A DNA stretch of 64,000 bases from Hyphomicrobiales bacterium. Its GTDB lineage: Bacteria; Pseudomonadota; Alphaproteobacteria; Rhizobiales; Rhizobiaceae. The notes beneath the pieces are model-generated. The model was not told the DNA's origin and did no database searches. It saw nothing but the letters and a program-made list of their open reading frames with translations. Shown here piece after piece: positions 36,501-63,161 of the stretch (within the stretch, counting starts at the first letter, position 1; each line of letters begins with the position of its first letter). Both the position numbers and the translations under genes were made by a program. The stretch lies in NCBI GenBank assembly GCA_900469625.1, contig UBXV01000050.1, positions 1-64,000 on the forward strand. Reading direction: 5' to 3'.

Positions 36501-37520
36501 ATGCCCGGTGCGAGTGAGAACAGCTTTTCCTTTCCGATTCTGATCGGCGACATTGGCGGCACCAATGCGCGCTTCGCTTTGCTGCTCGATGCCTTCGCCG
36601 AGCCGAAGCAGTTGTCGCCGATCAAGACAGGCGATTTCGAGACCATCGAGGAAGCGCTGCAAAAGAGTATCCTCGACAAGACCTCTGTCCAGCCGCGCTC
36701 GGCGATCCTCGCCGTCGCCGGCCCGATCAAGGGCGACGAGATCCCGTTGACCAATGCCGGCTGGGTGATCCGCCCGAAGGACATGCTGACGAGCCTTGCC
36801 CTTGAGGATGTGCTGATCATCAACGATTTCGAAGCGCAGGCTCTGGCCGTCGCGGCGCCGGCCGCCGAAGATCTGGTGCAGATCGGCGGCGGCAGCGTCC
36901 GCCCGCTGACATCCCGAGTCGTACTCGGTCCGGGCACGGGCCTGGGCGTTGGCGGCCTCGTCTTTGCGCAGCACACCTGGTTTCCGGTGCCGGGCGAGGG
37001 CGGGCATGTCGATATCGGTCCGCGCACCGAGCGCGACTTTCAGATCTGGCCGTTCCTGGAGCCGATCGAAGGGCGCATGGCGGGCGAGCAGATCCTGTGC
37101 GGTCGCGGCATCATGAACCTCTATCGGGCCGTTTGCGCCGCCGATGGGGAGGAGGCCGTGCTGACCGATCCCGCCGAGGTCACCACGAGCGCGCTTGCCG
37201 GCAGCAATCCGACTGCGGCGGAAACGATATCGCTGTTTTCGACCTATCTCGGCCGTGTGGCCGGTGACATGGCGCTGATCTTCATGGCGCGTGGCGGCGT
37301 TTTCCTGGCGGGCGGCATTTCCCAGAAGATCCTGCCGGCGCTGCAGAAGCCGGAGTTCCGTACCGCCTTCGAAGACAAGGCGCCGCATTCCGCGCTGATG
37401 GCGACCATTCCGACCTTTGCAGTCATTCATCCCATGGCGGCCCTGTCCGGTCTGGCGGCATTCGCGCGCACACCGAGAGACTTCGGTGTTGCAACAGAGG
37501 GACGCCGCTGGAGAAGCTGA
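36501..37520 (+). CDS. glk: Glucokinase
   Basis: ATP-dependent glucose phosphorylation in the cytoplasm, bacterial Glk family. The start at 36501 (339 aa, MPGASENSF) fits the family length; ATGs at 36489 and further upstream are open but run towards the repeat element. Motifs: phosphate 1 [14 protein letters not shown], catalytic Asp in [22 protein letters not shown] and the sugar-binding [11 protein letters not shown]. It is followed at 111 bp by an ABC exporter gene. Confidence 0.93.
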
Positions 37521-62142: not shown

Positions 62143-62345
62143 GGGAGGATCTGCCGTTCCTGAGTGCAACGGCATCTAGAGAACCACAGCGCGTCGACAT
62201 GTCGACAGAGATGTGTTCTTTCACATCAAATATCATGGGTTGTGGTTTACAACCTGTAATATTAGTCGGCCATTATGCACTGCAATCTGCGGCCGGCGAA
62301 AGAGCCGAAATCGGCAATTCATGGTGCAACGCAGCAATTCCACCC
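62143..62345. other. Intergenic region upstream of the small RNA
   Basis: About 200 bp with no gene recognised. Its left part is AT-rich and contains the dyad GGTTGT-GGTTT-ACAACC at 62238-62254. The right part may contain the conserved activation region of the small RNA promoter. Confidence 0.5.
62238..62254. promoter_or_regulatory. Inverted repeat upstream of the small RNA
   Basis: GGTTGT-GGTTT-ACAACC is a perfect 6-bp dyad about 90 bp before the small RNA -35 element and 96 bp before the divergent small-protein start. It could be an operator for either transcript. Confidence 0.4.
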
Positions 62346-62374
62346 TTGAAAATATTGCGGCGCATGATTATTAT
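62346..62374 (+). promoter_or_regulatory. Promoter of the NfeR1-type small RNA
   Basis: TTGAAA (62346-62351) and TATTAT (62369-62374) are 17 bp apart, close to the sigma-70 consensus. Transcription would start around 62381-62385, immediately before the first hairpin. Confidence 0.75.
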
Positions 62375-62381
62375 ACGACTT

Positions 62382-62497
62382 ATCGAAGCGCTGCACCTCC
62401 TCCCGCGGCGCCCGATGTGGATCGGTGGCACTCCTCCTCCCAGTCACCGGTCAAGTTTGAGAGCTCCGTGCACCTCCTCCCGCACGGAGCTCTTTTC
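62382..62497 (+). ncRNA. nfeR1: Alpha-r14 family trans-acting small RNA (NfeR1/Smr14C2-like)
   Basis: About 115 nt, folding into three hairpins. Stem 1: GCGCTGC/GCGGCGC (62388-62394, 62405-62411). Stem 2: CGGTGGC/GTCACCG (62423-62429, 62443-62449). Stem 3: AGAGCTCCGTGC/GCACGGAGCTCT (62460-62471, 62482-62493), which with TTTT is the terminator. Each loop contains the same CCTCCTCCC (62396-62404, 62433-62441, 62473-62481), complementary to Shine-Dalgarno sequences. Three identical unpaired anti-Shine-Dalgarno motifs are the known hallmark of NfeR1 of Sinorhizobium meliloti, which represses ABC transporter mRNAs and affects osmoadaptation and nodulation. The exact 5' end is inferred from the promoter. 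Confidence 0.88.
62460..62496 (+). terminator. Terminator of the small RNA
   Basis: A perfect 12-bp stem with a 10-nt loop, followed by TTTT. The loop also carries the third anti-Shine-Dalgarno motif, so the terminator hairpin is itself a seed region. Confidence 0.93.
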
Positions 62498-62669
62498 ATT
62501 TCCGGTCCTGGCAGAAGTCACGGTCTGGCGCGAAATCATGGTCGCCCGGCGCGAGGCAAACCTGCCACCGGTCTCTCCGGCAATATCGATATTTTCGCGA
62601 ATCCTGCTATGGCTTCGCCTTGATGTTGTGCTCGGCTGGCCTCCCCGAAAGCCGATGAGGAGGAATTCG

Positions 62670-63161
62670 ATGAAGTTTCCGTCCGCCGCGGTGCTGGTGT
62701 TTTCAACGCTTGCAATCGTGAATTCAGATGCTCTGGCGCAGGACAACGTCGCCTATGTCGACGATCGCTCCGACGGCGCGGCCGTCGTGCGCTCGCTCTA
62801 CAACGCCATCAATCGCAAGGAATATGCCCGCGCCTACGGCTATTTCGGCGAGACGAAACCGGCCGGCGGCTACAAGGCGTTCACGCGCGGCTACGAGCGC
62901 ACCGTTGCGGTCGAGGTCAAGCTTGGCAAGGTCAAGACCGAGGCGGGCGCCGGCAGCATCTATTCGGCAGTGCCGGTCGCGGTCAAATCGATCGAGCAGC
63001 GTTCAAGGGTCCGGTTCTTCGCCGGCTGCTACGTCACCCGGATCATCAATCCATCGCTTCAGGTGCCGCCGTTCACACCCTACCAGATCGAAGCGGCACG
63101 CCTGAAGGAAGTGAAGGGGCCGCTCGACGCAGCCCTTCCGACCGTCTGCAACGCACCGTGA
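62670..63161 (+). CDS. Exported protein of unknown function
   Basis: A 163-aa protein; the start at 62670 has a strong GAGGAGG 6 nt upstream. A signal peptide (AAVLVFSTLAIVNSDALAQ) is followed by a compact domain: DGAAVVRSLYNAINRKEYARAY, a pattern seen in NTF2-like or DUF-type periplasmic proteins, then VRFFAGCYVTRIINPSLQ and a C-terminal Cys (TVCNAP), so Cys-Cys bonding is possible. I do not recognise a named family. Its ribosome site is complementary to the small RNA loops. Confidence 0.75.
   Translation: MKFPSAAVLVFSTLAIVNSDALAQDNVAYVDDRSDGAAVVRSLYNAINRKEYARAYGYFGETKPAGGYKAFTRGYERTVAVEVKLGKVKTEAGAGSIYSAVPVAVKSIEQRSRVRFFAGCYVTRIINPSLQVPPFTPYQIEAARLKEVKGPLDAALPTVCNAP

Follow-up and report, generated by a model that had tools for sequence, protein, structure and literature searches.

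Near the end of the 64-kb window, by which we mean the whole stretch of DNA analyzed, lies what is very probably a free-standing, trans-acting small RNA of the ar14 family, about 115-120 nt long, that would block the start of translation on a group of mRNAs leaning towards transporters. Judging by sequence, it is an authentic ar14 RNA and thus a further copy of a published rhizobial family, and it is a separate, syntenic paralogue, a sibling of NfeR1 and not NfeR1 itself. Sequence comparison demonstrates that it belongs to the family, that its structure, seeds and promoter are conserved, and that it persists in the absence of the neighboring gene. The family and its architecture were already known, and the redundant three-seed design has been published (PMC10746234; PMC3927594, section 2.7). 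What is new here is the synteny, the persistence without EamA, the TGC-N3-GCA promoter, the lean of the targets, and the absent ntrB site. A literature search on the combined terms found no paper that joins Ensifer adhaerens with an NfeR1/ar14 sRNA.

Table 1. Features in and around the ar14 gene, in window coordinates
Feature	Position	Strand	Basis
TGC-N3-GCA dyad at -57, putative regulator site	62325-62333	+	promoter comparison
-35 hexamer TTGAAA	62346-62351	+	promoter search
Second TGC-N3-GCA dyad, at -26, inside the -35/-10 spacer	62356-62364	+	promoter comparison
-10 hexamer TATTAT	62369-62374	+	promoter search
ar14 (RF02344) small RNA, 5' end probably near 62382	62378-62497	+	Rfam (103.2 bits, model 1-123) and fold
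Hairpin 1, seed CCUCCUCCC at 62396-62404	62382-62416	+	fold and motif search
Hairpin 2, 13-nt loop, seed at 62433-62441	62420-62452	+	fold and motif search
Hairpin 3 and T run, seed at 62473-62481, likely intrinsic terminator	62459-62497 (hairpin 62459-62494)	+	fold and motif search
EamA transporter, C-terminal remnant of 17 codons, 76% identical to L039	62523-62573	+	sequence comparison
Anchor gene, 163 aa, no Pfam family, synteny anchor	62670-63161	+	conserved downstream

Structure and family membership

A search of the entire window found CCTCCTCCC on the plus strand at 62396-62404, 62433-62441 and 62473-62481, in agreement to the base with the original prediction, which had placed one and the same motif in three hairpin loops at 62396, 62433 and 62473. 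The fourth and last match in the window is on the minus strand (37147-37155); shuffled windows contained a mean of 0.61 matches, and four were reached in 1 of 100 shuffles. In the predicted fold, each of three hairpins carries the motif in its loop (-54.5 kcal/mol, z = -5.72), and this stability was equaled in 0 of 200 shuffles. In the third hairpin, a 13-pair stem (62459-62471/62482-62494) encloses a loop of 10 nt, and a run of T starts within the stem; by sequence this hairpin is a likely terminator, as had been proposed for the end of the RNA. It is absent from the list of a simple terminator scan, because the loop limit of that scan is 8. The predicted promoter with a 17-bp spacer was recovered as well, in the form of TTGAAA-17-TATTAT at 62346-62374 (10 of 12 matches; shuffles 0.4 +/- 0.6).

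The original prediction had named a covariance-model search with the alpha-r14 family as a suitable check. This search gave a match to RF02344 (ar14) at 103.2 bits over model positions 1-123, against a gathering cut-off of 58.8 bits, and it is the sole above-cut-off Rfam match in the window. Rfam places the ends of the RNA at 62378 and 62497, whereas the first stem begins at 62382, the start given originally. It is true that no protein-coding annotation would reveal this RNA, as had been stated, but an Rfam scan does. Two of the three reading frames run through the RNA of the window without a stop, but a coding role of this stretch is unlikely because of one- and two-column indels inside the RNA in the alignment of orthologues.

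The hallmarks of ar14 are found throughout that alignment, which comprises the window and 25 syntenic loci. Three hairpins, each with an unpaired CCUCCUCCC, are present in all 26 sequences, and all three seeds are invariant. The stems remain paired though variable in sequence: RNAalifold gives 26 pairs, and in 11 of these at least one sequence is changed on both sides with the pair kept, although the number of independent covariation events is smaller than 11, as many changes mark one split between two clades. Scored irrespective of locus, 120-nt ar14 matches above the cut-off occur in 16/16 genomes of the genus, our own included. Across the taxonomic family, 121 genomes were sampled, and ar14 exceeds the cut-off in 108 of them (116 of 121 at E <= 0.001).

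Conservation and neighborhood of the locus

Of the 80 loci that we fetched, 40 were scanned for the RNA, the scan ending short of the more distant loci L079-L118. The locus is syntenic, with the same downstream gene, in 25 of the 40 scanned relatives (20/20 and 5/20), and its nearest named relatives are Ensifer and Sinorhizobium. The copy of G001 (L036), a genus genome outside the alignment, carries a substitution in the second seed. In three scanned loci (L064, L065 and L066, two named Rhizobium and one Rhizobiales), no ar14 was found, and an ar35 RNA (RF02346) precedes the anchor gene (L064 2768-2881, L065 2794-2907, L066 2726-2847). Another locus, L084, comes from a record titled Bacillus subtilis and resembles the Brucellaceae loci, with 43% identity to the anchor protein; it probably represents a mislabeled or contaminated assembly.

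A full-length EamA-type gene lies on the same strand between the RNA and the anchor gene in 22/25 relatives. The gene of L039 has a PF00892 match, and the other 21 are 79.6-96.6% identical to it. In the window, most of this transporter gene is gone directly behind the RNA (62500-62580), and between RNA and anchor gene of L045, L046 and L048 (3/25 relatives) there is no convincing EamA match. The RNA is intact in all four of these EamA-less loci, and is therefore not a leader of the EamA gene.

Related copies and the whereabouts of NfeR1

The genome contains five ar14 matches above the cut-off, all at different places, and seven at E <= 0.001. Pairs of CCTCCTCCC motifs 20-50 nt apart number 12 genome-wide versus 0 for the reversed control, and these 12 pairs correspond to six RNA loci, located on contigs C35, C42, C52 (a tandem pair), C71 and C45. 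There are four motifs each in the C35 and C42 loci, three plus two perfect ones in the tandem pair (C52:17421/17705), three in the window copy, which stands alone on C71, and two in the C45 locus. The four-motif relatives (C35:79819-79962 and C42:28020-28163) are near-identical to each other and nearly identical upstream too, suggesting that they probably stem from a recent duplication. The two-motif relative (C45:128147-128247) scores 49.2 bits and so remains below the Rfam cut-off; matches of 40-48 bits are present in several genus genomes. Apart from C45, the weak Rfam matches of the genome include C35:169927 with one perfect motif, C67 and C60:219017 with no motif, and C60:83225 with no perfect motif in either orientation.

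Repeated loop motifs of this kind are not confined to ar14. The RS0680a RNAs, for example, are also named CcsR, or "cuckoo RNA". As described in PMC3927594, these Rhodobacter sphaeroides RNAs have a repeated anti-Shine-Dalgarno loop motif and homologous transcripts, as here, but two hairpins instead of three. The same source reports three, four or two hairpins for the SmelA075/SmelA099/SmelC201 family, the loop motif and modular hairpins of which recur in the window RNA, and our genome has two-, three- and four-motif members. The window copy is the three-hairpin form, and is likened to that family by motif and modular design.

In S. meliloti 4H41, the two members of a tandem ar14 pair begin 30.6 and 30.8 kb away from where the AbcR pair begins. 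In Rm1021, SmelC397 (NfeR1) is listed at 1667 kb beside SmelC398, and SmelC411/412 (AbcR) at 1698 kb, about 31 kb off (PMC2873474). The two strains show a matching distance of about 31 kb, which places NfeR1 in the tandem pair. From order and promoter, we infer that the NfeR1 orthologue of our genome is the second copy of the tandem pair on C52; the two AbcR genes of this draft assembly lie on a different contig, C18. The third seed of this orthologue is imperfect (TCTCCTCCC), as it is in L034 and L038.

Promoter and putative regulator sites

We compared nine promoters of second tandem copies, five of them from the 16 genus genomes (L003, L026, L029, L034 and L038) and four from elsewhere (L126, L131, L123 and L124). 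TGC-N11-GCA (NtrC-type) occurs near -119 in 8/9, and GCAT-N3-TG-N3-T (LsrB-type) near -65, likewise in 8/9. Neither pattern is found within 160 nt upstream in the window or its 10 close orthologues.

The promoter of the window copy has two TGC-N3-GCA dyads instead. The first is located between -53 and -58 in 26/26 syntenic sequences. The second, in the spacer, is present in 11/11 sequences of the adhaerens lineage (the window and L039-L048) and in 0/15 of the others, the Sinorhizobium-side orthologues. At the window's own density, TGC-N3-GCA is expected 0.06 times per 160 nt. The general dyad TGCNNYGCA is not enriched window-wide (28 found versus 36.5 expected), and support for the dyad comes from its fixed promoter place only. 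The lineages differ also at -35, where CTTGAAA is present in 10/11 adhaerens-lineage sequences and 0/15 others. Among the 15 Sinorhizobium-side promoters, six have an LsrB-consensus match at -60/-61, and TGC-N11-GCA occurs in seven, five at -62, one at -61 and one at -130; the sequence with the pattern at -61 is also one of the six LsrB-consensus matches. These matches make a LysR-type regulator possible at this place of the promoter. Transcription in this strain is presumed, as is a regulator acting at the TGC-N3-GCA dyads.

Proposed mechanism and predicted targets

In the proposed mechanism, transcription of the RNA would start at a sigma70-type promoter of its own and stop at the third hairpin, the CCUCCUCCC of each loop would pair with Shine-Dalgarno sequences, and the pairing would keep translation from being initiated on a group of mRNAs leaning to uptake transporters. 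The mechanism is most likely the same as for NfeR1, which, according to PMC10746234, represses its target mRNAs in a seed-dependent manner through redundant seeds, with ABC transport systems making up most of the predicted targets. By analogy with the published NfeR1 experiments in S. meliloti, the window RNA should act as a repressor, too.

The pattern GGGAGGAG-N4-11-ATG has 44 matches in the genome versus 4 for the reversed control. The 44 matches represent 43 distinct sites, behind which lie 31 different ORFs of 100 aa or more. An above-cut-off Pfam match exists for 27 of these, and 14 of the 27 encode transport components. A control Shine-Dalgarno motif, AAAGGAGA-N4-11-ATG, has 41 matches at 39 sites before 26 ORFs of at least 100 aa, of which 22 have a Pfam match and 4 of these 22 belong to transport. 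The bias (14/27 versus 4/22) has a two-sided Fisher p of 0.019 (0.022 over all ORFs) in what is a small test with labels of our own; p becomes 0.045 when the outer-membrane barrel L225 of the control is assigned to transport, and 0.07 when the two FadL proteins are no longer assigned to it. The sequences therefore suggest a modest transporter lean of the predicted 8-nt targets, and transporters may prefer this Shine-Dalgarno sequence for other reasons. Matches to 9 nt of the seed complement number six in the genome versus 2 for the reversed control. Two of the six are at Pfam-supported gene starts, one of a xanthine/uracil permease at C55:80416 and one of an ABC solute-binding protein at C74:93159, each with a predicted seed duplex of -20.8 kcal/mol.

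Alternative readings

That the RNA serves the downstream gene in cis, as a leader or attenuator, would be a natural guess in view of the same-strand EamA gene that follows the RNA in most relatives, and also because the Shine-Dalgarno sequence of the anchor gene, GAGGAGGA, is complementary to the seeds (duplex -13.4; 20/500 shuffles as good). We consider it highly improbable, since the RNA closes with its own terminator-like hairpin, is kept where EamA is missing (the window, L045, L046 and L048), and belongs to a set of five above-cut-off copies at different places in the genome. It is unlikely, too, that the window RNA is a silent or decaying duplicate and that the tandem pair does the work. 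In S. meliloti, Northern blots reliably showed only one of the six NfeR1-type copies (PMC7143759), the 15 Sinorhizobium-side orthologues have no CTTGAAA at -35, and the G001 copy has lost one seed, all of which would fit silence. Against this speak the seeds and pairing kept in 26 aligned sequences, the good promoter retained in the adhaerens lineage, and the location of the imperfect third seed in the genome's NfeR1 orthologue, not in the window copy. SmelA075, of the same motif family, has also been detected after heat, according to PMC2873474.

The original prediction had equated the architecture with that of NfeR1 (alpha-r14). This was right for the family and for the design with three redundant seeds, but synteny and promoter do not support identity with NfeR1. 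The window RNA resembles NfeR1/Smr14C2/SmelC397 of S. meliloti in having three hairpins, the CCUCCUCCC loop seed, a length of about 120 nt, its own promoter and a terminator-like third hairpin. It differs in locus, and in having TGC-N3-GCA dyads in place of NtrC and LsrB sites. An NfeR1 orthologue, wired to nitrogen via NtrC and LsrB and repressing ntrBC, would share the family and the identical three seeds, yet there is very little probability that the window RNA is one. We reject this identity because of synteny, since the tandem pair that houses NfeR1, some 31 kb from AbcR1/2 in S. meliloti, is not the locus of the window copy, because the promoter patterns typical of the second tandem copy are absent from the window and its 10 close orthologues (a comparison with published consensus patterns only), and because the 30 nt upstream of the genome's own ntrB contain no more than 4 nt of the seed complement.

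The ntrB link

NfeR1 pairs with ntrB in S. meliloti, and PMC10746234 calls the interaction likely in other alpha-rhizobia. We searched the 30 nt before the ntrB start for the longest stretch of seed complement. In the genus of the window copy (loci L161 and L193-L207), the 8-nt pairing site is absent from all 16 genomes, the longest match being 4 nt in each of them. In 14 other genomes, a set that leaves out G145 (no ntrC at threshold), the longest match is 8 nt in three (S. meliloti 4H41, S. medicae and USDA 6670), 7 nt in two, 6 nt in five, 5 nt in one and 4 nt in three. With the genome's own ntrB start, the seed is predicted to form a duplex of -8.3 kcal/mol, a value that does not stand out from shuffles (229/500 as good); with S. 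meliloti ntrB it is -17.7, and 93/500 shuffles of that G-rich region are as good. By this longest-match test, ntrB pairing appears to weaken across Sinorhizobium and to be gone in the adhaerens lineage; intermediate sites of 6-7 nt may still work. In the five genus genomes read, the NfeR1 orthologue still has an NtrC-type site upstream, though the ntrB pairing site is missing.

Together, these observations suggest a joint reading, which we put forward tentatively and with slightly less than even confidence. The ar14 paralogues would have the same seeds and different inputs, the adhaerens-lineage window copy answering a putative regulator via the TGC-N3-GCA dyads at -57 and -26. The double-negative loop between NtrBC and NfeR1 would be broken there on the ntrB side, with the NtrC-type site kept. 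It would operate as a circuit of the Sinorhizobium side, at its strongest in the S. meliloti/medicae group, instead of being common to alpha-rhizobia in general. We call it "Sinorhizobium-side" because ntrB sites of 6-7 nt are found there. This questions the breadth of the ntrBC feedback loop, which PMC10746234 calls likely conserved in alpha-rhizobia. With the window RNA, a family studied mainly through one copy gains a conserved, syntenic paralogue, and there is a sequence-based reason to ask whether ar14 copies are distinguished by the timing of their production alone.
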